Positions 10,473 through 48,135 of a stretch of DNA of 64,000 nucleotides are shown one piece after another. A program made the position numbers and the translations under genes. The stretch is from positions 1 through 64,000 of IMG/VR virus record IMGVR_UViG_3300030102_006903, one strand, 5' to 3'. Every line of letters starts with the position of its first letter. Within the stretch, counting starts at the first letter, position 1. The stretch is from a virus. Below the pieces are notes generated by a model, which did not search any database, was not told where the DNA came from, and saw only the letters and a list, made by a program, of their open reading frames with translations.

Positions 10473-11561
10473 TTACTTTTTTTGTAGTATTTCATCGATT
10501 AATTTAATAATCAATGATTTTCCTTTCCATAATAATTCTTCACATAGTTTCTTATTATTATAAACCCTATGTTGATTATTATTTAAGAATTCTTCAGTAT
10601 CACAAGTGGTTAATCGTTTTGCTTCTTGTACTAATTTTTCTAATCTCAAAATTTCATCTGTTTCCTTTTCATAAGAATGGTCAACAAAATCATCATACAA
10701 ATCAAAACCTAATTTTCTTAATTCATCTTGTAATCCCCTATAACCATGTATAAGTGGTATCTGTCCTCTTACAAGGGGTTTTATTGTCTTTTCAGTAAAT
10801 GAAATGTGGTTTTTATCATCTTGTTCTAAAAGACCTGTTACATTCTCTGATATCAAATTTACAGTATGTTCTAAGTATTTTAAATCATTCCAATCTTCTT
10901 GTAATAATCTGTGTTCTTCATGATGGTGAACACGAAATTTTTCATGTAATACTTTCTGAATTTCTTCATTTGGTAAAGTACTTACCATTTGATTGAAATC
11001 TTCTTGATAAAATTTTGGTCCTTCACCTTTATTAAGATAATACCAAAAAAATAAATGTGTATGTTTTATTAATCTTGACCTTTTAAATGCCTTACTGCAA
11101 AAATAATTTAACCATAATCTTTGTGTTCTTAGAGAACCATTGTATGATACAATACCATGTGCTAATTCTCTATTATCATGATGAAAAAAAGTTCTACTGT
11201 GAATATTATCGTGCAAGTGTCCAAGAAATGCTAGTGAGTAATCATCAATTACTCTACAATTTAATTCTTGATTTATTGGTAAATCGGATATCAGTATAAA
11301 TTCGTAGTTGTATTTTTCTATTATTTTTTTAAATCTTTCTAAAAATAATTCAATCTGACCCGATTCTGTTGTTATATCAACTATAATTTTTGTATTGGGA
11401 TTACAATATGGAATAACTTTTTCAATCTCACCTTCACCTTCTATTTCTCTATGTACAAATATAATATCATATTTGCCATCTAGTTTTTCAGGTAAAGTAG
11501 CATTTAAAAATCTACCCCACAATCTTTGAGATTGATAATGAAAATCGGCAATCTTAATCAT
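10473..11561 (-). CDS. Putative glycosyltransferase (GT10/exostosin-like C-terminus)
   Basis: 362 aa. The C-terminal stretch SFTEKTIKPLVRGQIPLIHGYRG followed by a Leu/Gly element and FVDHSYE is the pattern seen in GT10-type fucosyltransferase-like proteins of T4-like marine phages, where it forms the sugar-nucleotide binding half. The N-terminal half is less clear. No membrane segment. Its 5' end overlaps the amidinotransferase stop by 8 nt, so the two are probably cotranscribed and act on one product. Donor and acceptor are unknown. Confidence 0.7.
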   Translation of the reverse strand: MIKIADFHYQSQRLWGRFLNATLPEKLDGKYDIIFVHREIEGEGEIEKVIPYCNPNTKIIVDITTESGQIELFLERFKKIIEKYNYEFILISDLPINQELNCRVIDDYSLAFLGHLHDNIHSRTFFHHDNRELAHGIVSYNGSLRTQRLWLNYFCSKAFKRSRLIKHTHLFFWYYLNKGEGPKFYQEDFNQMVSTLPNEEIQKVLHEKFRVHHHEEHRLLQEDWNDLKYLEHTVNLISENVTGLLEQDDKNHISFTEKTIKPLVRGQIPLIHGYRGLQDELRKLGFDLYDDFVDHSYEKETDEILRLEKLVQEAKRLTTCDTEEFLNNNQHRVYNNKKLCEELLWKGKSLIIKLIDEILQKK

Positions 11562-12591
11562 CCTCTCTTACAACATCTAAAGTTACACAATGTGGTCCAC
11601 CACTAAAGGTTCTTGAATGTCTCATCTTTACTGGTAATGATTCAACTCCAAACCTTTGTAATTCTTTCATTAACATTGTTTGATGTTCTTCAACCATACA
11701 AAGTTTACTATTAATAGGTAGGATATTCATACCTAACCAAGGTGATGCAGGACACCAATCATCAAGAACTTGAGTTGCAAATGGTTCTGGTGCCCATATT
11801 TTATCAAAATCATGTAAAAAATGTGGCATATTCCATTCATTAACTCTTTGAGGATTTAATAATACCAATCCTTCTCTTAAAAATACAAAAGTTGTATCAA
11901 TGTGGATATATGCATAAACATTTTCGACTGGATGGACATTGTATTCATTTCCAAAATTTTCTTTACAATAATGTTCTAACCATTTAGCTCCATCTAAATT
12001 ACCTGTATTAGAAACTAAATACAACAAATCATTATTATGTTTTATGACATTTGCAGCATCAAAAACTGGTTCTCCATTTAATAAGGTTGGAATAGATAAA
12101 TCATCTCTTTGATAAATGGAATCTAATAATTTTGGTTTTGGTGCATCAACCCAATGATTTTGGTCAAATAATGGTTTACAGGTTTCTGCCTCATTACTTC
12201 TATGTCTTAATGTCATAGGGGTTGCTATTACCTTATCATTTATTACTATCATTGAATCTCTTGGACAATAATTATAATAACCATCAACTTCCCAATTTTC
12301 TGTTTTAATTGGTTCAGAAAAATCTCTATCCTTAGGTCTGTGAACTTTTACACCGAGATTTCTTAATGTATTTGCAATCTCGTTTAAATCTTCTTCCATC
12401 TCCTCTCTTACCTTTTCAGGATAAAGACCTGATGGTCTATTTTTAAATTCTTCTTCAGATAAGTGTGCATAATCAATACTATGTAGACACTTATCACCAA
12501 CTGTTGGAACTCTTGCGTGTTTTGTTGTTCCTACTATAATCTCTTTGAGATTTCCCCACTCATTTCTTACTTGTGGTTTTATTAATTCCAT
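11554..12591 (-). CDS. Amidinotransferase family enzyme (glycine/inosamine amidinotransferase-like)
   Basis: 345 aa. It has the pentein-fold catalytic set of arginine:X amidinotransferases: FDAAN (D178), YIHID (H230, D232) and the nucleophile C335 in GGPHC. These enzymes move the amidino group from arginine to an amine, giving guanidino products such as guanidinoacetate or streptamine derivatives. Human AGAT and bacterial StrB have the same motif order. The neighbours include a GT-like protein, a 2OG oxygenase and APS kinase, so modification of a small molecule, sugar or base is plausible. It overlaps the DUF2061 gene by 32 nt and has an SD-like GGAG. Confidence 0.88.
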   Translation of the reverse strand: MELIKPQVRNEWGNLKEIIVGTTKHARVPTVGDKCLHSIDYAHLSEEEFKNRPSGLYPEKVREEMEEDLNEIANTLRNLGVKVHRPKDRDFSEPIKTENWEVDGYYNYCPRDSMIVINDKVIATPMTLRHRSNEAETCKPLFDQNHWVDAPKPKLLDSIYQRDDLSIPTLLNGEPVFDAANVIKHNNDLLYLVSNTGNLDGAKWLEHYCKENFGNEYNVHPVENVYAYIHIDTTFVFLREGLVLLNPQRVNEWNMPHFLHDFDKIWAPEPFATQVLDDWCPASPWLGMNILPINSKLCMVEEHQTMLMKELQRFGVESLPVKMRHSRTFSGGPHCVTLDVVREDD

Positions 12592-12781
12592 AATTACTCC
12601 ATTTATACCAGGCTCTTTCGTGTAAATAATAAAGAACCATTTTTGTTACTAATTCAACTCCTCCAATTGCCACACCCCATTTCCAATTACCTGTAATTAT
12701 CCAAGATAATACCATGGTATCTAATGTACCAATGATTCTCCATGTAATTGTTTTTAAGATATGTCTTTTGTGTTTTACCAT
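12560..12781 (-). CDS. DUF2061 membrane protein
   Basis: 73 aa with two membrane helices and the DUF2061 signature: TWRIIGTLDTMVLSW, then GGVELVTKMVLYYLHERAW. This family is often found next to sulfate-activation genes (cysC/cysN), which fits the APS kinase gene 0.8 kb upstream. A role in sulfur or anion handling at the membrane is guessed from context only. The gene overlaps the oxygenase gene stop by one base. Confidence 0.9.
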   Translation of the reverse strand: MVKHKRHILKTITWRIIGTLDTMVLSWIITGNWKWGVAIGGVELVTKMVLYYLHERAWYKWSNYGINKTTSKK

Positions 12782-13263
12782 TATATTAATCCTTTCGGTT
12801 TGTTTATATTTATTGCAAAATGTAATGAATATCTTACACCCTCTGTAACTTCTTTTACTTCATGCCAATCGTTTCTACCAAATACAAACAATTCACCGAT
12901 ACTAACAGATAGTTTTTTATTTTCCAAAATAAAATCACCACCTTTATAATCAGTATTGAGTAAATATCCTCCTGTCAATACTGTATTTAATTTATTTGAA
13001 GAATAACTTGGTCCATCAATATGATTACCAAAGAAATCTCCTTCGTTATAAATCAAAAAAGTAATAAATTCACTAACTTCGTAAAATTTATTAATCTTTT
13101 TTAAATCTTTATTTATTAATTCACTTACAAATTTAAATTCTGAAAAATCTGATATCTTCAACCATTTATTTTTTTTCCAATCTAAATCGTAATCTTGATA
13201 AAACTCTGTATAATCTTTTTGAAAAAATACATTTAATATTTTTTTAACATCAGAGTTTTCCAT
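12781..13263 (-). CDS. 2OG-Fe(II) oxygenase (prolyl-4-hydroxylase-like)
   Basis: 160 aa. Iron ligands HID (H81, D83) and WHEV (H134), with R144 positioned to bind 2-oxoglutarate. The double-stranded beta-helix core covers roughly 65-150. Such enzymes hydroxylate proteins, nucleobases or small molecules. Phage versions are common and mostly uncharacterised. Start and stop overlap both neighbours, so it belongs to the sulfate/amidino module. Confidence 0.85.
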   Translation of the reverse strand: MENSDVKKILNVFFQKDYTEFYQDYDLDWKKNKWLKISDFSEFKFVSELINKDLKKINKFYEVSEFITFLIYNEGDFFGNHIDGPSYSSNKLNTVLTGGYLLNTDYKGGDFILENKKLSVSIGELFVFGRNDWHEVKEVTEGVRYSLHFAININKPKGLI

Positions 13264-13609
13264 CTTTTCTCATTTGTTCTCTGATTGATGTAGCAGATAT
13301 TTCACCAATTTCTTTTGGTGGTATATGTTCTATAATATCGTAACCAACACCTCTTCCATAATTAACTGATTCGATATCAGGTATAATTGTTGTAATTACT
13401 CTACCATCTTTAATCAAATCTTTTAATTCTCCCTCATGAACCATTTTTTCAATTTCTTGAGCAGTCCAAGGTTGATTTTCGTTTGGTTCAACATCTCTAA
13501 TTGCTAAACAAATATTTTTACCTTCCTTTAATCTTTGATTTATTAACCATAGATGACCTTTGTGTAAAGGTTGCCATCTACCAATGAACATTGAGTATTG
13601 TTTTCCCAC
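13250..13609 (-). CDS. Cytidylyltransferase-like nucleotidyltransferase
   Basis: 119 aa. The nucleotide-binding HxGH motif (HKGH at 16-19, in FIGRWQPLHKGH) and the C-terminal ISATSIREQM are typical of the cytidylyltransferase superfamily, which includes NMN adenylyltransferase and CTP:glycerol-3-P cytidylyltransferase. The protein is near the minimal domain size. Placed one base after the APS kinase gene, it may activate the same small substrate. The exact substrate cannot be assigned. Confidence 0.88.
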   Translation of the reverse strand: MGKQYSMFIGRWQPLHKGHLWLINQRLKEGKNICLAIRDVEPNENQPWTAQEIEKMVHEGELKDLIKDGRVITTIIPDIESVNYGRGVGYDIIEHIPPKEIGEISATSIREQMRKDGKL

Positions 13610-13610
13610 T

Positions 13611-14084
13611 TTAAATTTTATTTAGTTGATTTAAATGATTTATAATTTTTGAAAAAGAAGATTCTGGCGAATCTTTTGTTGTATCAATATCTATAAATTC
13701 TATTTCAGGTGCCTCAAAATCTTTTGTATGGAAATGGTCTCTTTCCCTTTTATCTGTACAATGTAAATAAAACTCTTGAAAATTTTCATAACCGATTCTT
13801 TTCTTGAATTCTTCTCTTAATTTTCTATAAGGTGCAACCAATGATACTACAACATCACAATCATTATTGTGAATAAATTCTACAATCATCTGTGCATTTC
13901 TGATGTTATTTTTTCTTCCCTTTTCTGAATAATCTTTATTGATTGTTAAATCTCTTAGATTATCACCATCAAGATGAAAAACACTTCTCCTCCAATTTCT
14001 TTTTTCTGTTTTTAAAAAAGAATGAAGTTTTTTTCCTAAAATCGTTTTACCTGCTCCAGGTTGTCCTATAAACCAATATACCAT
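13611..14084 (-). CDS. cysC: Adenylylsulfate (APS) kinase
   Basis: 157 aa from ATG 14084, which starts directly after the methyltransferase stop; a longer frame into that gene lacks support. Walker A GQPGAGKT at 7-14, HLDGDNLR, and VVSLVAPYRKLREEF match CysC, which phosphorylates APS to PAPS, the sulfate donor. With a nucleotidyltransferase and DUF2061 nearby, it may supply sulfate or a phospho-adenylyl intermediate to modify a phage or host surface molecule. Some spacing motifs differ from E. coli CysC, so another small kinase substrate is possible. Confidence 0.85.
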   Translation of the reverse strand: MVYWFIGQPGAGKTILGKKLHSFLKTEKRNWRRSVFHLDGDNLRDLTINKDYSEKGRKNNIRNAQMIVEFIHNNDCDVVVSLVAPYRKLREEFKKRIGYENFQEFYLHCTDKRERDHFHTKDFEAPEIEFIDIDTTKDSPESSFSKIINHLNQLNKI

Positions 14085-14085
14085 T

Positions 14086-14817
14086 TTATTTTTTAATATG
14101 ATAACACTTGTGGTGGGATGGTACACAAATGTAATCTCCATCTAAAAATTCATGTACTGCTTTTATTACACCTACATGAACTTGTTGTCCTTCAAAATCC
14201 CAAGTATCAGTTTCTAACATTTCTTCAGTTGCATCTTTAATGTTTAAATCATCGTAAGTATTTGCATCACCAGAGAAATCATCAAAAACCATGATACCAC
14301 CTTTTTTTAATTTTTTATATCCATTTTCAACATCAGATTTTACGATGTTATACTCATGTCCTCCATCAATAAAAATAATATCATACCAGTTATCCATTAC
14401 ATTGTGAATCATTTTTCTTGAATCACCTTCAAATACTGTTATAATATCATCTACTTTGAATTTTTTTGCCTCATTCCATAAATGTTCTTTCCATTCTTTT
14501 GGATTATCTTCATTGTACGACCATTCTTCCTCTTTATCGACAGTTAAATTACCTTTAAACCAATCAATCACATGAAGTTCACCATTTATCATTGGTAATT
14601 TTAATATCTTTGCATTTTCAACTGCATCCCATCCTTGGGCACAACCAATCTGTAAAACTTTTGGTCTATCTTTGTAATCATCCTCAGAATCATTATAATT
14701 CCAAAATGTTGATTTAATATGTGTGAAAATGAATGAGGATATCCAAGGAATAGGCAATACCCAATCTGAAGGTGAGAATGTATCCTTTTCTTTTTCTGTA
14801 ACAAACCACTCACTCAT
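14086..14817 (-). CDS. Class I SAM-dependent methyltransferase
   Basis: 243 aa from ATG 14817 (MSEWFVTEK). A longer version from ATG 14892 would overlap the holin candidate by 32 nt, and its extra residues look unstructured, so I prefer the shorter start. Motif I VLQIGCAQGWDAVENA, then IIFIDGGHEY and KKGGIMVFDDF, match the Methyltransf_24/CmcI type that methylates O- or N-atoms of small molecules or sugars. It is probably cotranscribed with the APS kinase. Confidence 0.85.
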   Translation of the reverse strand: MSEWFVTEKEKDTFSPSDWVLPIPWISSFIFTHIKSTFWNYNDSEDDYKDRPKVLQIGCAQGWDAVENAKILKLPMINGELHVIDWFKGNLTVDKEEEWSYNEDNPKEWKEHLWNEAKKFKVDDIITVFEGDSRKMIHNVMDNWYDIIFIDGGHEYNIVKSDVENGYKKLKKGGIMVFDDFSGDANTYDDLNIKDATEEMLETDTWDFEGQQVHVGVIKAVHEFLDGDYICVPSHHKCYHIKK

Positions 14818-34245: not shown

Positions 34246-34270
34246 AAAGTAAAAATAGTTTTTTTACTTT
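34246..34270 (-). terminator. Hairpin at the end of the sugar operon
   Basis: Perfect 10-bp arms AAAGTAAAAA/TTTTTACTTT (34246-34255 and 34261-34270), loop 5 nt, overlapping the stop codon of the last glycosyltransferase gene. No T-run follows on the minus strand, so termination is probable but not certain. Confidence 0.5.
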
Positions 34271-35157
34271 ATTTTTTTGAGTTCCTCACCAAAATTGGAT
34301 TCAGCAATTTTTTTAAACTCTTCTCTTCTATCATAAACTGATATATGATTTAAGTAGTGAGAATTGTTACGATATTTATAGTTTTCACAAACTACGAGGT
34401 TTTTTATTTTGAATTGGTTTACTTTGACACCAAACTCTTCAACGAGTTTTTCAGATGCCCACATTACAAATGTATCTTCGTAACCATAATGCCCAAATGA
34501 TTGGGGAACACCAATTCTATTAAGAAGTTTTCCACTAATACAAGTAAACCAACCACCTGCAAATTTAAATCTTGGTTGCCCATAAAAGTTATTTGTAACT
34601 CCTCTTACTATAATATCACCTTTAACACCTGAATCTTTGTAGGGGTCATTTGTTTTTTGGTAGTTAACTTTTTCAAGTAAGAAATTATCATTAACAAGAC
34701 AATCCCATGTATCATCCCAAATTTTAACAATCTCTGGTGTTATTATAGAGTTTGGAAAACTTTGATTAGTTGATTTCATAGCGTTTTCCAAATAAGATAA
34801 AGTTCTTTCATCAAATATAATATCTGTATCTAACCAAATGAAGTAATCAGCATCTCTATGTTTTTCAAATGAGAATCTTCTCTGTGAAACACAACCTAAT
34901 ATTTTTTCAGATGTTTGAAAGTTTTTTACACACCAATCTGTATTTGATGCTAATTTTAAAAATTTATCTTCAAAATATTTTTTATTGATTGATGATTTAT
35001 CCCAATTGACCATTTCAGATGAAGTACACATTGTAACATCTAAATTCCAATCTAATGATTTATCAATATAATATGATGCTTTTTTGAGTTGATTTAGAGT
35101 ATTTTCTAACTCATCAATTTCATATGGTAAACAAAAAATAGATATTACAATTTTCAT
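34264..35157 (-). CDS. Glycosyltransferase, GT-A type
   Basis: 297 aa. Rossmann-like start (KIVISIFCLPYE), then FIWLDTDIIFDE with the metal-binding DTD at 110-112, as in GT-A enzymes. It would transfer a sugar from a nucleotide donor. Last gene of the operon, ATGA-overlapped with its neighbour. No membrane helix; cytoplasmic. Donor and acceptor unknown. Confidence 0.8.
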   Translation of the reverse strand: MKIVISIFCLPYEIDELENTLNQLKKASYYIDKSLDWNLDVTMCTSSEMVNWDKSSINKKYFEDKFLKLASNTDWCVKNFQTSEKILGCVSQRRFSFEKHRDADYFIWLDTDIIFDERTLSYLENAMKSTNQSFPNSIITPEIVKIWDDTWDCLVNDNFLLEKVNYQKTNDPYKDSGVKGDIIVRGVTNNFYGQPRFKFAGGWFTCISGKLLNRIGVPQSFGHYGYEDTFVMWASEKLVEEFGVKVNQFKIKNLVVCENYKYRNNSHYLNHISVYDRREEFKKIAESNFGEELKKIK

Positions 35158-35972
35158 GAATATTTTTTTTCTATAAATTCTTTGAATTGTGGAATCCTAT
35201 CGTATTGATGCACTAATGGAAATACTTCTCCTTTTTGATTTGTAACGATATAATTTTCATCAACATTTGGTGTAGGTTCTAGTAACACATTTTTAAATTT
35301 TTCTTTATTTACCAAAACAGTACCCAATTGTGTTACGAATCCTTCTTCTTGTTCAACTTTTTGTACAATATTTTTAAATTGTTTTAAATTAATAAGAATA
35401 TTATATGCTGCCTGGTCTGCAAGTTGTTCTTTATTTGCTGTTGTCATACTCCATCTGTAAATATCAATAAATAAATCTCTTAGATATTCAGCGTTTCCTA
35501 CAATAGTTCCTGCACAATATGAAGTTTTATTTTGTAACCATTCCCATTCCATAGGAAAAGATGTTCCACTATTTACACACGCCCAAGGGTCATCTTTAAA
35601 AGTAATTGATTCTGAGAATGAAAGTATCTCACCATCCATATTTGCTTCTATCCATTCAGATGGGTCTTTTTGAAATATAATATCCTTTACATCAGTCCAT
35701 ATAACTGTTCCTTTTATTTCAGAACCAAGTAGTTTGTATAAATCTCTAAATCTTTGAAGGATTATATGTTGTTGAAGTTCTCCTCCATATAAATCCCATC
35801 CTTTTGATTTAAGATAATCAATAGTTTCTTGTGGTACTTCATATACCAACATTACTTTTCTACCATCAAACCCACATCTATCAATAGATTCAACATAAGG
35901 TCTAATGTCATCAGGTGAATATTTTGTTATACACCCTAAAATTGTTTTTTGGAAACTCGTTGGGTTTATCAT
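35154..35972 (-). CDS. Glycosyltransferase-like protein (TDxxD)
   Basis: 272 aa. Contains VIWTDVKDIIF (TDVKD at 93-97), a variant of the DxD motif seen in GT-A families, with YCAGTIVGN further on. Soluble. Overlaps both neighbours by 4 nt. The family is often seen in marine phage sugar operons; specificity is unknown. Confidence 0.7.
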   Translation of the reverse strand: MINPTSFQKTILGCITKYSPDDIRPYVESIDRCGFDGRKVMLVYEVPQETIDYLKSKGWDLYGGELQQHIILQRFRDLYKLLGSEIKGTVIWTDVKDIIFQKDPSEWIEANMDGEILSFSESITFKDDPWACVNSGTSFPMEWEWLQNKTSYCAGTIVGNAEYLRDLFIDIYRWSMTTANKEQLADQAAYNILINLKQFKNIVQKVEQEEGFVTQLGTVLVNKEKFKNVLLEPTPNVDENYIVTNQKGEVFPLVHQYDRIPQFKEFIEKKYS

Positions 35973-36730
35973 AATTTTACTAATTCTGGTTGTTTACATC
36001 CTGTCAATATTTCAAATTCTTCAAAGTTAGGTACTTCCCACAACTCACATAATTTTGTATTTTGAATAATTTCATATCCACCTAACATCATTATATATTG
36101 AAATAAAAAATCTTGCCATCCATAAATTTTATTTATTTTACAAAACTCATCAAACTTTTCTGTATATAAATCTAAAGTTCTTTCGTATGCATCAATATAT
36201 TGTTCTCTGTTAAAGATAGTTCCTCCACCACTTGCATAACCTGGACATGAATCCACACCTCCTACTGATTTAGAATATTCTAAAAATTGGTTAGGAATAG
36301 TATTTGGTCTCATTCTACCTGTTGGTGATGGTGCAGTTGGGTGAATTGCCATTGAGAAATCAAAATTTAAAATACTAATCGTATCTAATATAAAATCATC
36401 TTCTTCAAATAACATCATGTATTTTGAATCTGTTTTCTTACAGGCATTGTAAACACCTGTTAACCATTCTACTGCTTTCTCTTTAGTCCAATGTTCGTAT
36501 CCAATATCCCTATCACCAAAGTTACCACAATATCCTAACTGAAAGTTATTACGAGTAACAGTTGCTCCTAACTCTTCACCAACTTTTTGATATCCTTCTA
36601 AATCACCTTCATAATCTACATTGATAAAAAGGTCAGCATCAGAATAAAACTTCCTAAGAGTTTGCATAGATTTCTTACCTGCTTCGGTTTCTCTCCATGC
36701 CCACCAATAACCACTTATTAATTTACTCAT
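35969..36730 (-). CDS. Glycosyltransferase-like protein (EEDD)
   Basis: 253 aa. YMMLFEEDDFIL (EEDD at 109-112) corresponds to the metal-binding acidic motif of GT-A folds, preceded by a GVYNACKK helix. C-terminal part has GWQDFLFQYIMMLGGYE. Overlaps its neighbours by 4 nt. Specificity unknown. Confidence 0.7.
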   Translation of the reverse strand: MSKLISGYWWAWRETEAGKKSMQTLRKFYSDADLFINVDYEGDLEGYQKVGEELGATVTRNNFQLGYCGNFGDRDIGYEHWTKEKAVEWLTGVYNACKKTDSKYMMLFEEDDFILDTISILNFDFSMAIHPTAPSPTGRMRPNTIPNQFLEYSKSVGGVDSCPGYASGGGTIFNREQYIDAYERTLDLYTEKFDEFCKINKIYGWQDFLFQYIMMLGGYEIIQNTKLCELWEVPNFEEFEILTGCKQPELVKL

Positions 36731-37362
36731 AATTTTTCGAAATAACCACCAACTTTGAATTTAACATTTGCAGTAACACTACCTTTATCAGATGTTTTGA
36801 ACTTATCAGGATGTACTATCCTAAAATCAATTGAACATCTTGTATCTTTTTCTTCATTAGTTTGATTACCATGTAAAAGATTTGGTCCACTAAACACCAA
36901 AATTTCACCATAGGATACATCGTAACCTTTGAAATCTTCTTTTCCTTCTTCTGATTCCATCCATATGGTATTCGTTCCATACGCATCAGTAAATGGTAAC
37001 CATAAGTTAATCTCATCTACTCCATGATTGTAATCTCTATCTCTGTGCCATTCACCAACTCCTAAGTTATCAACTTGATGAACTCTGAATGTAGGAATCT
37101 TTTGATAAATAATTTCATCATACTCAAAGTGAGGTTTTACAAACTCTTCTATAAATTGTTTGTACAATGGATAAAACTCTTCTTTAAATTTATCATAATA
37201 AGTTTTATGCCACATTGTAGCCTGGTCTGTTGGTTCAGTATATCTTTCATACTTTTTAACCTCATGTAAATTCTCTAAACTTTTTTCACCTAAGATTTTT
37301 TTTATCAAAGGTCTGAATTGATACTTTGATGTATCGTATTTAATTTTATGTGTTTTTATCAT
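36727..37362 (-). CDS. 2OG-Fe(II) oxygenase-like (StrG/phytanoyl-type)
   Basis: 211 aa. EWHRDRD (H106, D108) and LLHGN (H164) give the iron facial triad, and R175 (TRCSIDFR) would bind 2-oxoglutarate. The long GEILVFSGPNLLHGN stretch resembles StrG and related sugar-modifying oxygenases. It probably hydroxylates a sugar or nucleotide sugar in the operon pathway. Confidence 0.78.
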   Translation of the reverse strand: MIKTHKIKYDTSKYQFRPLIKKILGEKSLENLHEVKKYERYTEPTDQATMWHKTYYDKFKEEFYPLYKQFIEEFVKPHFEYDEIIYQKIPTFRVHQVDNLGVGEWHRDRDYNHGVDEINLWLPFTDAYGTNTIWMESEEGKEDFKGYDVSYGEILVFSGPNLLHGNQTNEEKDTRCSIDFRIVHPDKFKTSDKGSVTANVKFKVGGYFEKL

Positions 37363-38033
37363 TCTGTTCTTTCTAATTTATATAAATTATTGTTTACTGC
37401 TGATTTAAATTCTTCATCCATCCATACAACATCATCTTCACCAACTTGATTTACCATTGGTAAATATAAGTTATGCATACCTGAATTTACTCCATGTGGT
37501 GGATTGGTTTCCATTTCAATTACTGCGTTATAAAAGGATTCTAACATTGAATGTGGGAATACTATAAATGTATCATTCACAATTGGTAAATCCATAAACT
37601 CAGGTTCTCTCCAAAGAAAACTACATTTTGTAAAATCATAATTGTATTCTTCAAATGGATTCTTAAAAAAGTTTATATCATATCTTGTTGATATAACTAA
37701 ATCTAAATCCTCATCCTTAAGTTGTTGTAAACTATTTAGATATGAAACTGTCATTATTTTCATACCATTTGATACTTTATCACCACCACCTAATTTATTA
37801 TAACCAGGTTCTACAAATGTATGTTTTATTGCTGGTGAATAATCTTCAATTATTTTATCTTGTTTTTCATTACTATAACTAAAAAGATAAAATTTTATAT
37901 CATGTCCATTTTCTCTTAATGGATTTACAACATTTTTATAAAAGTTTTGTATTGAGTTTTCATAATCTCTCAATCTACCACCTTCAATAGCATTGTTATA
38001 AGATACTCCTACTAAATTAATTCCTATTTTCAT
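37359..38033 (-). CDS. Glycosyltransferase-related protein (RYDI family)
   Basis: 224 aa from ATG 38033, which overlaps the previous stop as ATGA; a longer start adds residues inside that gene. VISTRYDINFF carries the same RYDI motif as the following protein, so the two are relatives. Motif position fits the acceptor/metal site of a GT-A fold. Specificity unknown. Confidence 0.7.
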   Translation of the reverse strand: MKIGINLVGVSYNNAIEGGRLRDYENSIQNFYKNVVNPLRENGHDIKFYLFSYSNEKQDKIIEDYSPAIKHTFVEPGYNKLGGGDKVSNGMKIMTVSYLNSLQQLKDEDLDLVISTRYDINFFKNPFEEYNYDFTKCSFLWREPEFMDLPIVNDTFIVFPHSMLESFYNAVIEMETNPPHGVNSGMHNLYLPMVNQVGEDDVVWMDEEFKSAVNNNLYKLERTE

Positions 38034-38740
38034 TTTACATCTTCTGGCCACCAAACTTTATCATCTCTAAGTAAGTTAAAGTTGATTCCATCGTGTTTTA
38101 TTGCGTTATCATATAATTGTATTCTATGTAAATACTTCGTAAAGTTTTGTTCAGCACCATCCATAATTCCTTGTTCTCTATTATAATTTACAATATTATC
38201 AAATATTGTTGGAAAAACTTTATCTGAGTTTTCTTGATTAGACATATAAAAATTATCATCATGTATTGGACTGTTAGGCCAATGACTATTTGATGTATAA
38301 ATTTTTGTTAAATCATAATCACTTAATTCTAAATTAGAACCAGCAATATCATATCTACTTCTTATAATACAATCATATTTAATATTTGATTCTTGTATTT
38401 TTTTATAAGTTTCTTGCCAACCATACAACATTGGAAATGCTCTGAAGTTACTAAATACATCAAAATCTGTTAGTGGTCTTGATTTATCATCTCTTGGTGT
38501 TTTAATACCTTCTCTGTACTTAGTAAACTTAATTGGTTTCTGTATATTAATGTATTTAGGATTTGGATAAACTTTTAAAACATCATCACTATCTTCATTA
38601 TTTGTTATTTCATCAGGTTTAGATTCCCATGCATGAAGATACAAATCTACATCATTATTATCTATAATGTATTTCCAATAACCATCATAACCTTCTTGAA
38701 CTTTTCGTGCAAGACCAGTTAACATTAATGCTACTTTCAT
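38030..38740 (-). CDS. Glycosyltransferase-related protein (RYDI family)
   Basis: 236 aa. Begins MKVALMLTGLARKVQEGY, then CIIRSRYDIAGSNL. This start and motif occur in a family of phage and bacterial proteins next to polysaccharide genes. Paired with its relative at 38033, possibly acting in successive steps or as a heterodimer. Confidence 0.7.
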   Translation of the reverse strand: MKVALMLTGLARKVQEGYDGYWKYIIDNNDVDLYLHAWESKPDEITNNEDSDDVLKVYPNPKYINIQKPIKFTKYREGIKTPRDDKSRPLTDFDVFSNFRAFPMLYGWQETYKKIQESNIKYDCIIRSRYDIAGSNLELSDYDLTKIYTSNSHWPNSPIHDDNFYMSNQENSDKVFPTIFDNIVNYNREQGIMDGAEQNFTKYLHRIQLYDNAIKHDGINFNLLRDDKVWWPEDVK

Positions 38741-39159
38741 TTCTTGTAAACCATTTTTAAATATTTTCTACCTCTTCTTAAACCACTCTCACCTGTTTCA
38801 ACAAATCCTAATTCTTCGTATAACTTTTTTGCATGATTATCTTCAAAAACCCAAAGGTCTGCATAATCTTTATCCTCTAAATACTTTGTATATGCTGCTC
38901 TTGCATATCCTTTTCTACGAAAATCAGGATGTATATCACATCCAATCTCATCACCATTGATTCTAATGTACCCAACCTCTTCATTATTTTCATTATAAAT
39001 CATTAACCATTGTGGTTTCATTTTTTCAAACCAATCTTCACATTCATCTAAAGTAAATGCACTATCATTTTTTAATTGAGTACGAGTTGATTCTTCATTC
39101 CTTACTAATAGTAGGAATCTTAAATTATTTTCTTTTAATGGTTCTAATCTTATTTCCAT
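38737..39159 (-). CDS. GNAT-family N-acetyltransferase
   Basis: 140 aa, one GNAT domain. The acetyl-CoA site is IGCDIHPDFRRKGYARAAY (R/Q-x-x-G-x-A variant), and the last strand NHAKKLYEELGFVETG is typical. It follows the aminotransferase gene, an order used to make N-acetylated amino sugars (as in PglD/WecD-type pathways). Confidence 0.88.
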   Translation of the reverse strand: MEIRLEPLKENNLRFLLLVRNEESTRTQLKNDSAFTLDECEDWFEKMKPQWLMIYNENNEEVGYIRINGDEIGCDIHPDFRRKGYARAAYTKYLEDKDYADLWVFEDNHAKKLYEELGFVETGESGLRRGRKYLKMVYKK

Positions 39160-40349
39160 TTTTTAATACAATCTACAATGTATTCTCTTTCTTCTTTTGT
39201 TACCCACCAACCAACTGGTATTGAAACTACATGACCAATTGTTTTGTCCAAATTTGGTAACGATGTTTTAAATTCTTCCATACAAGAATGTTTATCGTTT
39301 CTCTCATGAACTTGAGATACTGTAATATTACAATCTTGCATATATTTGTAGAACGATGGTCTATCATCTACTAATAGTGAGTAAATCCAAAATGCCGATT
39401 CAAATCCTTCTTCTCTTTTTAGAAGTGTAACACCATCTACATTTTGTAAGTGTTCATCATAGTACGCTGCATTATCTTTATGTTTAGTAACTATGTCATC
39501 TAAGTGTTTAAAGTTTTCTATACCAACAGCTGCACAAACATCATTCATGTGAAATTTAAATCCCCATTCAGGTATATCTGCTTCACATCTGAAATCTGTT
39601 CTACCTTTTGGGTTTCTATCAATACCATACCATCTCAGTAATTTTGCTCTTTCATACAATTCTTCGTGTGGACAATAAAGTAAACCACCATCGACTGAAG
39701 TGATGTGTTTGATTGCCTGTAAAGAATTCATTACAAAATTGTGATGATTACCTAAATATTTTCCTTTATATTTTGTACCGATTGAATGTGCTCCATCTTC
39801 AATTAATGCTGGTGCCCATCCATGTTCTTTTCTAAATCTACCTCTAATATTTCTAATCTCATCTAAATCTAATGGATATCCACCCCAATGAACTCCCATA
39901 ATTGCTTTTGTTTTTGGAGTCATCTTTCTTTCTAAATCATCCAAATCCATATTAAGAGTTGTTGGGTCAATATCCACCCATTTAATTTTTAGATTATTTG
40001 CTACGATTGGCCAATTAGATGCAGTACAAGTTAGTGGTGTTGCTAATACTTCATCACCATCTTGAATACCTGGCCAGTTGTGTTCTACAAATGCAACACC
40101 ATGGAATTCTTCTCTCCAATTTTCTTTTGGTTTCTTAAGTAAGTGTAGTGCTAAATGTAATGCAGATGTACCAGCATTTGTTGTAACTACTTTATCATTT
40201 CCAAAGTATTCTCCTAATTGTTTTTCAAATTCATCTACCTTTGGTCCTTGTCCTATATAACCACTATCTAATACTTCACCAACTTTTTCTTTTGCTGTTG
40301 GTGCCATGAATACTTTAAATAATGGTATTGATTGTTCTGGTTTATTCAT
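39150..40349 (-). CDS. DegT/DnrJ/EryC1/StrS-family sugar aminotransferase
   Basis: 399 aa, full length for the family. PLP-site features: NAGTSALHLAL (59-69), IEDGAHSIG (183-191), and lysine K214 in SLQAIKHIT for the Schiff base. These enzymes convert a keto-sugar nucleotide to an amino sugar. With the GNAT protein it would give an acetamido sugar. The oversized insert near 78-95 is unusual. Confidence 0.92.
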   Translation of the reverse strand: MNKPEQSIPLFKVFMAPTAKEKVGEVLDSGYIGQGPKVDEFEKQLGEYFGNDKVVTTNAGTSALHLALHLLKKPKENWREEFHGVAFVEHNWPGIQDGDEVLATPLTCTASNWPIVANNLKIKWVDIDPTTLNMDLDDLERKMTPKTKAIMGVHWGGYPLDLDEIRNIRGRFRKEHGWAPALIEDGAHSIGTKYKGKYLGNHHNFVMNSLQAIKHITSVDGGLLYCPHEELYERAKLLRWYGIDRNPKGRTDFRCEADIPEWGFKFHMNDVCAAVGIENFKHLDDIVTKHKDNAAYYDEHLQNVDGVTLLKREEGFESAFWIYSLLVDDRPSFYKYMQDCNITVSQVHERNDKHSCMEEFKTSLPNLDKTIGHVVSIPVGWWVTKEEREYIVDCIKKWK

Positions 40350-40785
40350 CGTTTAGAATGTTTTTATTTTGTTTAATAGTTTGTTTAGTAATTAAATCTT
40401 TAATTTTTGTAGTTGACCATCCATGTGAACGAGTTGTATAAATAATTTTAATTGGTAAATCATCACCTGTAAATGATTTTCCTATGTAATCTTCACCAAG
40501 TATTCTAACATCTGGTTTAAAAAAATTAATTAAATTTAATAAATCTTCTTCAGTTTGGTAAATATAAACCTCATCAATATATTTTATTGACATTAATGTT
40601 TTATATCTTTCGTAAATAGGTATAACAGGTTTATACTTTGATTTTCTATGTTCCGATGGGTCTCGTTGAAGAAACACTATAAATTTATCACAATGTTTTT
40701 TTGCTTCTTCAAAAGTATAAATGTAACCTGGATGTAGTAAATCAAAATTACCAGCAGTAAATCCTATTGTTTCTTTATTTGCCAT
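40342..40785 (-). CDS. Cytidylyltransferase-like nucleotidyltransferase with HPGY motif
   Basis: 147 aa. AGNFDLLHPGYIYT corresponds to the HxGH motif of the TagD/RfaE family, but the second His is Tyr (H18-P-G-Y21). The C-terminal STTKIKDLI matches the ST-x-I-x motif. Activity may be changed or weak. Likely activates a glycerol-P or sugar-P. Confidence 0.85.
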   Translation of the reverse strand: MANKETIGFTAGNFDLLHPGYIYTFEEAKKHCDKFIVFLQRDPSEHRKSKYKPVIPIYERYKTLMSIKYIDEVYIYQTEEDLLNLINFFKPDVRILGEDYIGKSFTGDDLPIKIIYTTRSHGWSTTKIKDLITKQTIKQNKNILNDE

Positions 40786-41230
40786 AACTTATAATATTAT
40801 CAGAACAAACTCCATAACACTCTTCAACATTTTCTTTATTTATTTCTGGCATTACAGATACACAATTTTTTATTTGTGGTACACCTGGATACTTCCATAA
40901 GTGACCATGTGAAGTTATCGTTACATCATCTTTTTGATGATAAAAATAATTAATATTTGTTATTTTTTGTTCAAGTTCTAATCTTTTAAATTCCTCTATT
41001 GCATCAATATGTTTACAATGCACCCAAAGATTTTTACTTCGTTCTAATAACCATTCCAAACTAATACCATATTGTGCCTCATCGTGTCCTAAAAAGAAAG
41101 TTTCTGAAATAAACCAAACATCAATTTCAACATCATAACCTTGTTCAATTGCGGTATCAATGTAGTTTGGGTTATTCTCAAACTTTTCATGTTTACCATT
41201 TATATTTCCTCTATGAGAAATTAATTTCAT
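40775..41230 (-). CDS. GDPD-like (glycerophosphodiesterase fold) protein
   Basis: 151 aa, shorter than typical GDPD enzymes (about 240). HRGN at 6-9 and VEIDVW supply the first His and the E/D metal ligands; the later LWVHCKH fits a core strand. The C-terminal part of the barrel is abbreviated. Could cut glycerophosphodiesters or act on a teichoic-acid-like polymer; the next gene is a glycerol-P-like nucleotidyltransferase. Confidence 0.75.
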   Translation of the reverse strand: MKLISHRGNINGKHEKFENNPNYIDTAIEQGYDVEIDVWFISETFFLGHDEAQYGISLEWLLERSKNLWVHCKHIDAIEEFKRLELEQKITNINYFYHQKDDVTITSHGHLWKYPGVPQIKNCVSVMPEINKENVEECYGVCSDNIISYGK

Positions 41231-41580
41231 AATTCTTCTATTCTTTTTGCCTTATCATCTATTACTAAATCAAAAGATGGTTTTAGTGGATAACAAAAAA
41301 TACTTTTTCTATAACCAACTATTAAATCATTAAATTTACATCCCCAACTTTTCAATTGTTCTTTAGTTAATTCATACAAATCTCTTTCGGATACACTTCC
41401 TCTTGCTGTCCAATAAATTATTTCCCAACCTTCATCATATAGTTTGTTAATTTTATCTATGTTTTCTTGTTTAGGTATTGCGTTTTCATAAAACCTTTTA
41501 CCTTCGTAAAAACAAATAGTTTCATCAACATCAACTAATGCTCTTTTTTTATCTCTTGGATATAATTTACTTTCTATCAT
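41227..41580 (-). CDS. Small HAD-like phosphatase
   Basis: 117 aa from ATG 41580; a longer frame extends into the previous gene through the promoter, so it is rejected. DVDETICFYEG gives HAD motif I, WTARGSVSE motif II, and VIDDKAKR motif IV. It resembles polynucleotide or sugar-phosphate phosphatases such as phage HAD proteins. The promoter -7 box ends one base before the ATG, so translation is probably leaderless. Confidence 0.82.
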   Translation of the reverse strand: MIESKLYPRDKKRALVDVDETICFYEGKRFYENAIPKQENIDKINKLYDEGWEIIYWTARGSVSERDLYELTKEQLKSWGCKFNDLIVGYRKSIFCYPLKPSFDLVIDDKAKRIEEL

Positions 41581-41581
41581 A

Positions 41582-41613
41582 CAAATATACGAAATTATTT
41601 GTAATTTTCCAAA
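41582..41613 (-). promoter_or_regulatory. Bacteroidota-type internal promoter of the sugar operon (leaderless)
   Basis: TTTGG (41613-41609), 19-nt spacer ending TTTCG, TATATTTG (41589-41582) on the minus strand, then one base and ATG. The -33 box lies inside the 3' end of the HAD/nucleotidyltransferase gene. Confidence 0.8.
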
Positions 41614-42977
41614 TAATATTTCAAATCTTCTGGTGTACCCAATCCCCACATCTTAGGAATATCATAAGTACGAATCTCTTTTCCATCCTCAATTGCTTGA
41701 TTAAATACAGGACAAACATAAAACTCATTGTTCACTCTGATATCTTTTTCAATCATATCTTCTGCATATTTTACAAAATCAGAACCATGTTTCCAATAGT
41801 AATAACCAACTGTTGCAATATCAGAGATAGGATTCTTCTCTGCAACCTCAGTTACTAATCCTTTTTCATCTATCTTTGCAAAACTCCACTTTGGATGTGT
41901 TGCTCTAAATGATACAATACCACCATCTGCATTTGTTTCATTCATTTTATATAAGAATTCATTTGAATCCCACTCAACGAATTGGTCTGAGTTAGCAAAA
42001 AACAGAGGGGTATCTTTATTTATGTATTCTTTAGCAAGTAATGCCGTACATGCTGCACCTTCTGTTAGTTTATCAACCTCTACTATTTTACAATTTGGTG
42101 TAATGAGATTTAATAAAGTATCTAAGTTATACTTTTCTCTATGTTCTTTTTGTACAACATAAACATAGTTTGCTTTGATGTTTAGATTTTCCACCACCAA
42201 CTGAATCATAGGTTTTCCCTTTACATCAATTAATGGTTTTGGAAAAGTATATCCTGCTTGTTGAAATCTACTTCCTGCTCCAGCCATTGGAATCAATACT
42301 GTAAGATTTTCATCTCTCCATGCTGGTGTTGATTGTTGTTCTCCCATTTCTATTTGTTTTAATTTATTATCTATATTACTATAATTTGTTTCTTTTGTAT
42401 TCTTTACTCTCAGTATATGTGATTTGGAACGAGCAGCTGCAAGTAATCCATATGGTGAATCTTCAACTATCAAAGTTTCCTCAGGTAAACAACTCATCAT
42501 AGATATTGCTTTCCAATACATCTCTGGATGTGGTTTTGAATTTTTTACATCTTCATTAGATATCACCAAATCCATAAACTCCATAATACCCAATTTAGAT
42601 AAAACTGTTAAACAAGTTTTTCTGATTGAGTTTGAACACACTGCAATCTTATAACCTTCACTAACTAAGTTTCTCATACATTGTATTAGACCTGTATTTG
42701 GTTCTAGTGCTCTTAACTTTTCTAATGTAAGTTTTTGTTTTAACTCCCAAATAGTTTTATGATTTTCTTTTAGTAACCCTTTTTTCTCAGATAACATTTC
42801 TAATTTTTGAGTTGTTTTCAATCCATCATAGGTTGCTAGGTGTTCATTCCAACTTATGGCGTAACCTGGTCCTAATGCTTCGTTAAGTGCTTCATAGTGT
42901 ATATTTTTAGCCTCAACTAATACACCATCTAAATCAAATATGATTAATTTAATTTTATTTCCCATGTTTACCTTCAT
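41595..42977 (-). CDS. HAD phosphatase fused to sugar nucleotidyltransferase
   Basis: 460 aa. Residues 1-205: HAD beta-phosphoglucomutase-like hydrolase (IIFDLDGVL at 12-20, VCSNS, VEDSPYGLLAA). Residues about 228-460: NTP-transferase, LTVLIPMAGAGSRF and FPKPLIDVKGKP, as in mannose-1-P guanylyl- and glucose-1-P thymidylyltransferases. The fusion could remove one phosphate from a sugar bisphosphate and then charge the sugar-1-P, as in the heptose pathway (GmhB and HddC). ATG 42977 overlaps the neighbour by 23 nt; ATG 42965 is an alternative. Confidence 0.9.
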   Translation of the reverse strand: MKVNMGNKIKLIIFDLDGVLVEAKNIHYEALNEALGPGYAISWNEHLATYDGLKTTQKLEMLSEKKGLLKENHKTIWELKQKLTLEKLRALEPNTGLIQCMRNLVSEGYKIAVCSNSIRKTCLTVLSKLGIMEFMDLVISNEDVKNSKPHPEMYWKAISMMSCLPEETLIVEDSPYGLLAAARSKSHILRVKNTKETNYSNIDNKLKQIEMGEQQSTPAWRDENLTVLIPMAGAGSRFQQAGYTFPKPLIDVKGKPMIQLVVENLNIKANYVYVVQKEHREKYNLDTLLNLITPNCKIVEVDKLTEGAACTALLAKEYINKDTPLFFANSDQFVEWDSNEFLYKMNETNADGGIVSFRATHPKWSFAKIDEKGLVTEVAEKNPISDIATVGYYYWKHGSDFVKYAEDMIEKDIRVNNEFYVCPVFNQAIEDGKEIRTYDIPKMWGLGTPEDLKYYLENYK

Positions 42978-43695
42978 CTAAATGTGTAAATAATCCTTCA
43001 CCATGAGCAACTTTAAATGTTTGTTGTGCCCACCACTTTGAGATATTACCTTCTAATGCAATACCTTCACCAGCAAACTGTTTTACTGTTTGTAAATAAA
43101 AATCTTTTTTATATAAACAAGGATTGTTTGTCCAATTACCATAACGAGATGTTGTAGTAAAGTATTCACCTTCTTTTCCAATATGCTGTGGGAAACTTTC
43201 GAATGGGTCACACCAATGGACTGAATCCAATAGATGGGGTGATGTACATTCAATCTCCTTATCGTAATAATCCAATTCTCTTCCTTGGTATTTAAATGAA
43301 AAATGTGGGTGACCAGGGTTAGCTCTATGTCTATATCTAACACAAGAGTATCCATTATCTAATAACTCAATTCCACTTTTTACTCTATCGAGTGTTACAT
43401 TTCTATCTTCAATTAATTTCCAGTCATGTTCTAAAACCATTACATTATCAGTTTTAGCTTGTTCTGTTAATTGTATGAATCCTTGTCCGATTCCAATATT
43501 CTCATTCAAACCAATATAAGGAATATTAAAATGATTAGCTATTTGTTTATCTTGTTCTGATACTTCTTGAAATAAAATACATACATCATTTACTTGATGT
43601 AGAAATTCTCTATCAAAATAAGTTTGTAAAGTGTTAACAAGAGTTTGTCCACTTTTCCAAGATAAGATACCGATACTTAGTGGGAGTTTTTCCAT
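42955..43695 (-). CDS. Family 2-like glycosyltransferase
   Basis: 246 aa. ILSWKSGQTLVNTLQTYFD starts a GT2-like fold, and VMVLEHDWKLIED holds an EHD in place of DxD. Internal HCDP and Gly/His-rich parts are unclear. Soluble. It is coupled by overlap to the fused enzyme. Confidence 0.72.
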   Translation of the reverse strand: MEKLPLSIGILSWKSGQTLVNTLQTYFDREFLHQVNDVCILFQEVSEQDKQIANHFNIPYIGLNENIGIGQGFIQLTEQAKTDNVMVLEHDWKLIEDRNVTLDRVKSGIELLDNGYSCVRYRHRANPGHPHFSFKYQGRELDYYDKEIECTSPHLLDSVHWCDPFESFPQHIGKEGEYFTTTSRYGNWTNNPCLYKKDFYLQTVKQFAGEGIALEGNISKWWAQQTFKVAHGEGLFTHLDEGKHGK

Positions 43696-44564
43696 TCGTT
43701 ATATTTTTCAATTAAAAATTGTACTCTTTGTTTCTGAGTATGGTTCTCTAAAACCTTTTTAAATCCATTGTTAGCAATTTTTTCTCGTTCTTCATCATTT
43801 TCATTATAATAATTTATTTTGTTGATACAATCAACTATATCATCGTAATAAACTATATCTTCACCATCTGTAAATAATTCTTCTAACTTTTTAGATTTAT
43901 TTAATTTATCACAAAGAACCATTTTACCACAAGCCATTCCTTCAAATAATCTTCTAGTTACTTCTCCCCATCTTGAATGTTGAATAATCATTTTTCCTTT
44001 ATTAAGAAATTCAGTATGTTGTTTTGAATTGAATCCATTTTGATTTCCAATTGTACCACCACCATGTTGAGTAATTGTATCCAAAAATTCTGAACCCCCT
44101 CTACCTCTTGTTGTTACCGCAACAAACTCTGGTTTAATTTCTAATGGAAACTGAACTCGTGTATCAGCAAAATGTGTCCACCAATACGCATCTCTACCTC
44201 TTTTCTTATATTCTTCAGTTGAATCTGCATCTGGTGATACTGTTATATGAAACTTATTTGATTTAGGAAAGTTTCTATCAAAGTTTTGTGGGTCATCTCC
44301 ACTTTCTTGTACCCAAAATGCATCTACTAAATTTTTATCTAAAAGAGGTGAATCAAATCTACCCCAATCCATAAAGATTACAATATCTGTTTTTGGTTTA
44401 CTGTTTAACCATTCTCTTATCTGAGTATCATTCCAATTTTGTAATCTATTAGAACCAATTGAAACTATCTCTACTTCCCATCCTAACGAACCAAATTCAG
44501 TTGCAAGGGATAATGGTGTTGACCATTCTTCATTCTCATATGCATAAATAAAAGTTACTTTCAT
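43677..44564 (-). CDS. Family 4-like glycosyltransferase
   Basis: 295 aa from ATG 44564 (ATGA overlap with the dehydrogenase stop). The C-terminal half has WGEVTRRLFEGMACGKMVLCD, the GT4 E-x7-E nucleotide-binding element, and later helix EREKIANNGFKKVLENHT. GT-B fold, retaining type; adds a sugar to a lipid-linked or protein acceptor. Confidence 0.82.
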   Translation of the reverse strand: MKVTFIYAYENEEWSTPLSLATEFGSLGWEVEIVSIGSNRLQNWNDTQIREWLNSKPKTDIVIFMDWGRFDSPLLDKNLVDAFWVQESGDDPQNFDRNFPKSNKFHITVSPDADSTEEYKKRGRDAYWWTHFADTRVQFPLEIKPEFVAVTTRGRGGSEFLDTITQHGGGTIGNQNGFNSKQHTEFLNKGKMIIQHSRWGEVTRRLFEGMACGKMVLCDKLNKSKKLEELFTDGEDIVYYDDIVDCINKINYYNENDEEREKIANNGFKKVLENHTQKQRVQFLIEKYNEWKNSH

Positions 44565-46242: not shown

Positions 46243-46541
46243 TTTACTATTCCTATTAATTGATGTTCGTTAAATAAAACAAACTCCTCATCACCTATTT
46301 CAATTTTATTTACTGCCTGTGATTTTTCATACATTACTGTATCTCCTACACTTACTGTCATTGGTATTCTTTCTCCACTTTGTGAGAATATACCAGTACC
46401 TACTGATACAACTTCACCATAAACTTTTTGGTTCATTGTAATGGAATCTGCAATAATGATTCCTCCTTTTGTTTTTGTTTCTGTTTGGGTAGCTCTTACT
46501 AAAACTCTATCACCCAATGGTTTAAATTTACCTGATTCCAT
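46239..46541 (-). CDS. groES: GroES-like co-chaperonin (T4 gp31 analogue)
   Basis: 100 aa, full length. FKPLGDRVLVR start, mobile-loop region with KTKGGIIIADS, and GDEEFVLFNEHQLIG end match Cpn10. It would cap host GroEL, as T4 gp31 does to fold the capsid protein. Its site inside the sugar operon, overlapping the epimerase gene, is unusual for a head-folding gene. Confidence 0.93.
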   Translation of the reverse strand: MESGKFKPLGDRVLVRATQTETKTKGGIIIADSITMNQKVYGEVVSVGTGIFSQSGERIPMTVSVGDTVMYEKSQAVNKIEIGDEEFVLFNEHQLIGIVK

Positions 46542-48129: not shown

Positions 48130-48135
48130 TTTTTA

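Follow-up and report, generated by a model that had tools for sequence, protein, structure and literature searches.

To our knowledge, ATP sulfurylases come in only two kinds, Sat and CysDN. The PAPS synthetase of animals is an APS kinase fused to an ATP sulfurylase, and in fused enzymes of this type the APS kinase half pulls the unfavourable sulfurylase step forward; the lid of APS kinase, marked by an FTG motif, closes on APS. In phages, cysC genes have been read, at least in parts of two reports, as belonging to assimilatory sulfate reduction that boosts host cysteine synthesis (PMC9529941, PMC10914622). Neither an NMN adenylyltransferase (NMNAT)-like sulfurylase nor a module of the type presented here was described in the titles and abstract openings surveyed, a body of literature that leaves preprints and most subscription papers outside its scope. 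We propose, at a probability of roughly 75%, that the core of a gene block in a marine phage is a sulfate-activation (PAPS-synthesis) module for sulfation and that its compact HIGH-type nucleotidyltransferase (mini-NT) would represent an unrecognised, third class of ATP sulfurylase beside Sat and CysDN. Enzymes of this class would be about 110–120 residues long and NMNAT/PPAT-like in fold, with R38 and the YGRxVGY loop surrounding an anion pocket, and would be used by bacteria, archaea and many phages, with fusion to APS kinase either way round; on the same reading, many phage ‘cysC' genes would serve sulfation and not assimilation.

The window analysed comprises the first 64,000 nucleotides of a 113,373-base virus record, itself possibly a fragment. 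An earlier note on this DNA had described six overlapping or adjacent genes here, and this was borne out: all are minus-strand ORFs, neighbours overlap or sit 1–2 bases apart, and five are supported by Pfam. From the highest coordinate downwards, they encode a class I methyltransferase (14086–14817, with an ATG at 14817 and the frame open to 14892; Methyltransf_24, 56.6 bits), an APS kinase (APSK)-like P-loop kinase with a short lid (13611–14141, likely starting at the ATG at 14084; APS_kinase, PF01583, 59.6 bits against a cut-off of 21.1), the mini-NT (13250–13609, GTG start; CTP_transf_like, 26.2 bits), a 2OG-Fe(II) oxygenase (12781–13263; 2OG-FeII_Oxy_3, 34.8 bits), a small predicted membrane protein of the DUF2061 family (12560–12781; PF09834, 82.2 bits against a cut-off of 23.1) and a StrB1-like amidinotransferase (11554–12591; phrog_25854). 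A 362-aa protein follows on the same strand (10473–11561); Pfam, PHROG and NCBIfam all fit it to no family, so that its former label of GT10-like is unsupported.

That the six genes form a single pathway, as had been supposed, found no support. Conservation in the viral loci is confined to a core of APSK and mini-NT, often with DUF2061, which remain neighbours, whereas the methyltransferase, 2OG oxygenase and amidinotransferase (variable cargo) and the GT10-like gene come and go. The amidinotransferase lies in the same block on all six of the other viral contigs found to carry it (L001; L002/4/14; L003; L005/22; L006/48; L008), and two of these six hold close relatives of the methyltransferase. 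Weak relatives of the oxygenase occur in some viral loci, and the 362-aa protein has close relatives in two contigs (L005/22 and L006/48) and a weak one in L009.

The most informative part of the module is the mini-NT, the identity of which the earlier note had left unstated. The protein is 119 aa long (family range about 110–120 residues), and its HxGH and ISxTxxR-like motifs and Rossmann-like fold place it in the HIGH nucleotidyltransferase superfamily. Across an alignment of 52 sequences, 11 of its residues are invariant (including H16, G18, H19, R86, V88, G89 and R110), the invariant motifs being GRxQPxHxGH, RxVG and R110, while R38, like most positions of the ISAT motif, is kept at ≥90%. 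Its predicted fold (pLDDT 90.6) resembles PPAT and NMNAT (Z about 10); the profile match to PDB sequences covers residues 5–77 only. On the side of Sat, no Pfam match to PF01747 appeared up to E 0.1, and hhalign of the mini-NT profile against nine Sat proteins gave a weak alignment (probability 60). With the mini-NT model as query, Foldseek placed yeast ATP sulfurylase (1g8f) at rank 33, and no ATP sulfurylase was among the matches listed by VIA-align. An exact GRDHAG motif is present in six of the nine fetched Sat proteins; its equation with the YGRxVGY loop of the mini-NT was dropped, as hhalign left the two loops unaligned.

Physical linkage between mini-NT and APSK was then assessed in viruses and cells. 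Among 80 viral mini-NT loci, APSK lies within 4 kb in 75 and DUF2061 in 49; two of the five loci devoid of APSK place the mini-NT at a contig end, and in three phage isolates the kinase and the mini-NT form one protein. Counter-cases with APSK and no mini-NT are L003, L009, L010 and L011. The 80 cellular loci, drawn from genome contigs, comprise 17 APSK-NT fusions, 11 NT-APSK fusions, 44 with a separate APSK within 2.5 kb and 8 with none; a mini-NT lacking a nearby APSK is seen in L104 and L107, for example. Pfam recognised a full APS kinase in each of two cellular fusions (152 and 191 bits, respectively). DUF2061 is likewise fused to APSK in L150, L156 and L163 (Chitinophagaceae/Ferruginibacter), and Sat is fused with an APSK motif in L184.

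In Nitrospirales, where no APSK lies within 2.5 kb, the gene order is NIR_SIR/TusA, PAPS_reduct, mini-NT, an arrangement consistent with the mini-NT producing APS. One such operon is reductive and, along with the APS kinase homology, would agree with the phage gene being an ordinary assimilatory cysC that boosts host cysteine synthesis. However, the viral loci hold sulfotransferases, glycosyltransferases and tailoring enzymes instead, and a CysH profile (a narrow one, from four Nitrospirales proteins only) found no member in the viral loci or the 113-kb record; an assimilatory role for the phage genes is thus very unlikely.

That the mini-NT is most likely an ATP sulfurylase is suggested by genomic displacement together with operon context. 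Among 145 haloarchaeal genomes, APSK was found in eight, five of which carry a full-length mini-NT (130–138 bits) and exactly the remaining three of which carry Sat; no genome holds both mini-NT and Sat, and a CysD search of the 145 returned 0. In the order of G027 (flavobacterial, 246 genomes), surveyed for mini-NT, APSK and CysD, all eight mini-NT genomes have APSK and none has CysD, whereas CysD is present in 95 of the 96 other APSK genomes (Fisher p 3.5e-11, uncorrected for relatedness). More broadly, 49 mini-NT genomes, standing for 49 of the 80 cellular loci, were searched: 38 hold neither Sat nor CysD (E<1e-50) nor CysN (over cut-off), absences that are soft given the many MAGs and single-cell genomes in the mini-NT set, and 11 also carry Sat, CysD or CysN; genome and locus counts alike are non-independent. 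Both Nitrospirales genomes searched are among the 11, and the mini-NT there is therefore one candidate among others.

By sequence and by fold, the families nearest to the mini-NT are NMN adenylyltransferases, which would be expected of a NadR-like pair for NAD salvage (an NMN adenylyltransferase working with a nicotinamide riboside kinase), which might restore NAD against host defence. Yet the mini-NT scores 27.5 bits against the archaeal NMNAT equivalog TIGR01527 (cut-off 181.2) and so falls outside NMN adenylyltransferase membership, its neighbours are sulfur genes, and profile searches identify its partner as an APS kinase, with solved APS kinases matching at 3.4e-10 among PDB sequences. 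Moreover, partial matches read as NMNAT are all that the haloarchaeal genomes without a full-length mini-NT yield (32–55 bits), and such a match, read as the organism's own NMNAT, is present in all 145, including the five mini-NT genomes. Because the partner is APSK and those five keep their presumed NMNAT, NAD salvage was rejected as the main reading and appears most improbable.

For the sulfation reading, the genes that would consume PAPS are of interest. Sulfotransferase-like genes occur in 45 of the 80 cellular mini-NT loci, and Pfam sulfotransferase families score over cut-off near the mini-NT in contigs of haloarchaea, Omnitrophota, Planctomycetota, Diapherotrites, Staskawiczbacteria, bacterium TMED217, Flavobacteriales and Crocinitomicaceae. 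In phage loci L041 and L044, Sulfotransfer_3 is located upstream of APSK (70 and 67 bits, respectively), and a further phage family abuts or overlaps APSK, its Foldseek matches at E≤0.001 being sulfotransferases in seven of seven cases. Pfam placed two of eight phage candidates over a sulfotransferase cut-off and gave no match for six; the candidates of L001, L004 and L052 matched no family, and PDB sequences searched with a profile of the sulfotransferase-like phage family yielded no sulfotransferase. The Pfam-negative candidates are thus putative sulfotransferases on the grounds of the modelled fold of one family and an RxGST motif. Searches of the 113-kb record, which is possibly incomplete, returned no Sulfotransfer_3 match, and the sulfotransferase seeds had no credible relative there.

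Among 86 viral kinase frames, the P-loop is kept in 85 and DGDxxR in 84, but the FTG lid motif in none, as compared with 48 of 72 cellular frames. The phage kinase is called ‘APS-kinase-like' because of this absence, and the acceptor of such lid-less kinases might differ from APS. The kinase and mini-NT could then act on another small anion or a phosphorylated compound, and the decorating enzymes would use the nucleotide-activated group so formed, which might be a phosphoramidate, say, or a head group linked to an NDP. Such a role would also suit a superfamily that acts on many acceptors and a 113-kb record with no detected sulfotransferase. However, members of the mini-NT family are fused to full-lid APS kinases, exclude Sat and CysD, and adjoin sulfotransferase, PAPS_reduct and sulfite reductase genes, and short-lid kinases accompany sulfotransferases too (L164 and L044); activation of a non-sulfate compound is therefore rather unlikely. 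The O-methyl phosphoramidate pathway of Campylobacter, considered because a kinase, a nucleotidyltransferase and a methyltransferase occur together, employs an APS-kinase homologue and a cytidylyltransferase of another family, and was set aside.

In the PAPS-synthesis reading, the mini-NT, which is compact and akin to the NMN and phosphopantetheine adenylyltransferases, would couple ATP and sulfate to form APS, the reaction that would make it an ATP sulfurylase. The APS-kinase-like protein would, by homology, phosphorylate the 3′-OH of APS to yield PAPS and would thereby drive the unfavourable formation of APS forward, and DUF2061, tied to the kinase by fusion, may anchor or serve it. PAPS would then supply a sulfotransferase, the gene of which directly precedes the kinase in related phages. 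The 2OG hydroxylase, amidinotransferase, methyltransferase and 362-aa protein may act as interchangeable decorators, probably modifying a sugar or a protein to which sulfate is added as well; the glycan made by the cluster at 39–52 kb is one possible substrate.

Among PDB sequences, the amidinotransferase matches StrB1 (1bwd; 2.3e-87, 297 bits), full-length and with the Cys/His/Asp motifs kept at positions we take to be the catalytic residues; its match to Pfam ADI is sub-threshold (14.0 bits). Of the guanidino- or sulfo-sugar that the earlier note had envisaged, the sulfo- half gained ground, in that APSK and mini-NT resemble a complete sulfate-to-PAPS pathway, while guanidino transfer is suggested by homology. 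Nothing points to the modified DNA base also envisaged. QueC-, QueD- and QueE-like proteins, as judged by inspection of their sequences, lie near some viral mini-NT loci, all outside the module.

If the main reading holds, the sulfate pathway of many uncultured archaea and bacteria, which appears to have a gap, would be completed by a third sulfurylase of less than one-third the size of Sat, and this enzyme could prove handy for PAPS production. The interpretation of phage cysC genes would also change: the company they keep here, a candidate sulfurylase and in many cases a sulfotransferase, points to phages sulfating their own or host molecules.

Compared with described systems, the mini-NT shares the HIGH fold and both signature motifs with NMNAT (NadM) and PPAT (CoaD), but archaeal NMNAT exceeds it in length by about 50 residues, and the YGRxVGY motif is peculiar to the mini-NT. 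It takes the slot next to APS kinase that Sat or CysDN would fill, and in two clades it occurs to their exclusion, yet it belongs to neither family and aligns weakly with the Sat profile. The phage amidinotransferase, for all its full-length likeness to the inosamine-phosphate amidinotransferase StrB1, sits where no streptomycin-type pathway is seen around it. Animal PAPS synthetase and the bacterial Sat-APSK fusions parallel the module in the proposed reactions, in pairing and in fusion either way round, but the sulfurylase half of the module is a 110–120-residue NMNAT/PPAT-like domain with no PF01747 match. Finally, the module has in common with the cysC auxiliary metabolic genes of aquatic viruses, as presented in parts of those reports (PMC9529941, PMC10914622), an APS-kinase-like gene, which here, however, is paired with the mini-NT, DUF2061 and often sulfotransferases, and is read as serving sulfation.

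The block sits in a virus record of 113,373 bases. Read along the minus strand, in transcription order, it encodes a small EF-hand-like protein, a methyltransferase, an APS-kinase-like protein (APSK; 13611..14141, −), a 119-aa HIGH-type nucleotidyltransferase (13250..13609, −; with its relatives, mini-NT), a 2OG oxygenase, a DUF2061 protein (82 bits), an amidinotransferase, a 362-aa protein and an HNH endonuclease. All six genes that the earlier note had assigned to a modification module at 11554-14817 are present, with neighbours overlapping or abutting; its GT10 label for the 362-aa protein found no confirmation in family searches.

Scanning IMG/VR with the nucleotidyltransferase as query gave 470 relatives, of which the best 80 were retained. 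Among these 80 viral loci, an APSK homologue lies within 4 kb of mini-NT in 75 and a DUF2061 gene in 49. The amidinotransferase was found in only six further viral contigs, behind APSK each time; five of them also carry mini-NT and DUF2061, and the sixth (L003) carries neither. APSK without mini-NT occurs in L003 and L009-L011. The intervening genes, with names mostly read off the sequences by eye (radical SAM is a Pfam assignment), vary by contig and include SGNH-like, radical SAM, glycosyltransferase, sulfotransferase-like and 2OG genes. Conservation in related phages, which the earlier note had named as a check, extends to APSK, mini-NT and DUF2061 but not to the genes between them, and the block is therefore read as a stable core with exchangeable cargo. 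The window's kinase and mini-NT match different halves of one PHROG (10255, 'kinase'), and in the phage isolates DLP_6, AhaSv and Clavibacter phage 33 one protein combines the two. Chitinophagaceae/Ferruginibacter loci tie DUF2061 to sulfate activation, since it forms one protein with APS kinase there (L150, L156 and L163; DUF2061 at 57, 47 and 47 bits; kinase at ~170). Near some viral mini-NT loci, QueC- and QueE-like proteins were read from sequence by eye (for example, L056:5030-5950 and L044:10929-11723), and a carbamoyltransferase cluster occurs in 15 viral loci (L049:8985-9347, Carbam_trans_N, 52 bits).

Of 86 viral kinase frames, 85 preserve the P-loop motif and 84 preserve DGDxxR, yet none has the FTG lid motif, versus 48 of 72 cellular kinases. 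Against solved APS kinases, the window kinase gives a match at 3.4e-10. Short-lid kinases fused to mini-NT also occur in L116 and in L164, where a Sulfotransfer_3 gene lies directly upstream. The phage kinase is read, with some doubt, as an APS kinase with a reduced lid.

A GTDB genome scan with a mini-NT profile gave 123 relatives, 80 of which were kept, from Marinimicrobia, Bacteroidota, Omnitrophota, Nitrospirales, Acidobacteria, Planctomycetota, haloarchaea and others. Among these 80 loci, 17 encode fused APSK-NT and 11 fused NT-APSK; in the unfused loci, APSK lies within 2.5 kb in 44 and is absent from that distance in eight. Two fusions examined contain a full APS kinase by Pfam (152 and 191 bits), and fusion in either order argues for consecutive steps. 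Mini-NTs of 'bacterium TMED217' and a Marinimicrobia genome (L098 and L099) are 84-86% identical to that of the window, which suggests recent exchange; on such sequence likeness, the phage host is perhaps Marinimicrobia-like. Contig L118, assigned to a Chitinophagaceae MAG, bears the gene set of the phage block (APSK, mini-NT, DUF2061 and HNH) and is therefore probably phage. In L143 (486-890) and five more Bacteroidetes loci, APSK and mini-NT are separated by a second CTP_transf_like protein (~135 aa), and all eight haloarchaeal loci (L165, L166 and L172-L177) have a gene of the YqcI/YcgG family 3′ of the APSK-NT fusion (235.8 bits in L175). In L178, an asparagine-synthetase-like frame (G000 67957-69468) adjoins a PLP-enzyme-like frame, both read by eye.

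Three lines of evidence, namely operon logic, displacement of the canonical sulfurylases Sat and CysD, and neighbouring consumers, point to mini-NT being an ATP sulfurylase. First, in four Nitrospirales contigs (L124, L125, L131 and L142), mini-NT lies 3′ of a PAPS_reduct-family gene, with no APSK within 2.5 kb, and occupies the operon position of the sulfate-activating enzyme; the PAPS_reduct-family gene is itself preceded by a reductase gene in two of them (L124 and L125), that of L125 being NIR_SIR with TusA by Pfam. Second, APSK was found in eight of 145 haloarchaeal genomes, five with fused mini-NT and three with Sat adjoining APSK, none with both or neither; no CysD was found in the 145. 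In the flavobacterial order of G027 (246 genomes), where the comparison covers CysD rather than Sat, each of the eight genomes with mini-NT has APSK but not CysD, whereas CysD is present in 95 of the 96 remaining APSK genomes; in the exception (G389), the APSK match ends at a contig edge. Counting against this reading, at least one of Sat, CysD and CysN is present in 11 of the 49 mini-NT genomes searched (of 80; many incomplete), including both Nitrospirales genomes searched (Sat in six, strong CysD in five, CysN over cut-off in five).

Third, sulfotransferase families adjoin mini-NT across many cellular lineages, with a sulfotransferase-like gene in 45 of the 80 cellular loci, and six Flavobacteriales loci have a nearby inositol-phosphatase-family gene, which we take to be CysQ. 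In seven phage loci (L025, L044, L046, L050, L052, L054 and L056), a sulfotransferase-like frame runs up to the APSK start or overlaps it by at most 24 bases. L041 (70 bits) and L044 (67 bits) pass the Pfam sulfotransferase cut-off. Another family occurs in L012, L014, L046, L050-L052, L054 and L056. None of its scanned members matched Pfam, but all seven Foldseek hits of its model (pLDDT 76.5) at E≤0.001 are sulfotransferases. The L025 frame is recognized by motif alone, and a search of the window's own record found no sulfotransferase.

The predicted mini-NT model (pLDDT 90.6) adopts the HIGH nucleotidyltransferase fold and informs on fold, not on substrate. VIA-align gave a top Z of ~10, to PPAT and NMNAT; in Foldseek NadM/NMNAT came first, with no match at E≤0.001. 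A profile search of PDB sequences aligned NMNATs (≤49 bits) over residues 5-77 only, and mini-NT therefore has no close solved relative among them.

Among solved structures, the amidinotransferase is closest to StrB1, an inosamine-phosphate amidinotransferase (297 bits), which scores well above HsvA, SxtG and AGAT (124-141 bits). The alignment preserves the catalytic residues of such enzymes: Cys in GGxHC, His-x-Asp in HID and Asp in FDAAN. Relatives in cyanophage S-SCSM2R, where a 2OG oxygenase gene is adjacent, and Campylobacter phage CP220 lie among radical SAM and sugar-transferase genes, a context that makes a sugar the likely acceptor. The window also encodes, at 39-52 kb, a glycan-type cluster (39150-51602, −) of DegT aminotransferase, HAD plus NTP-transferase, UDP-sugar dehydrogenase, epimerase and glycosyltransferases; six frames at 34264-38740 matched no Pfam family. 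In Omnitrophota loci L121, L126, L129 and L134, genes of one cluster lie between the sulfotransferase and the NT-APSK fusion; that of L121 (7062-7943) scores 69.5 bits against the arginine-deiminase/amidinotransferase fold family, echoing the pentein of the phage module.

Phage cysC genes have been described as assimilatory sulfate reduction genes (PMC9529941, PMC10914622). No NMNAT-like sulfurylase was found described in the literature searched by title and abstract start, with preprints and most subscription papers outside its range. The block is read as a phage sulfate-activation module of ordinary parts around a new core, with a proposed mini-sulfurylase that looks like a new class.
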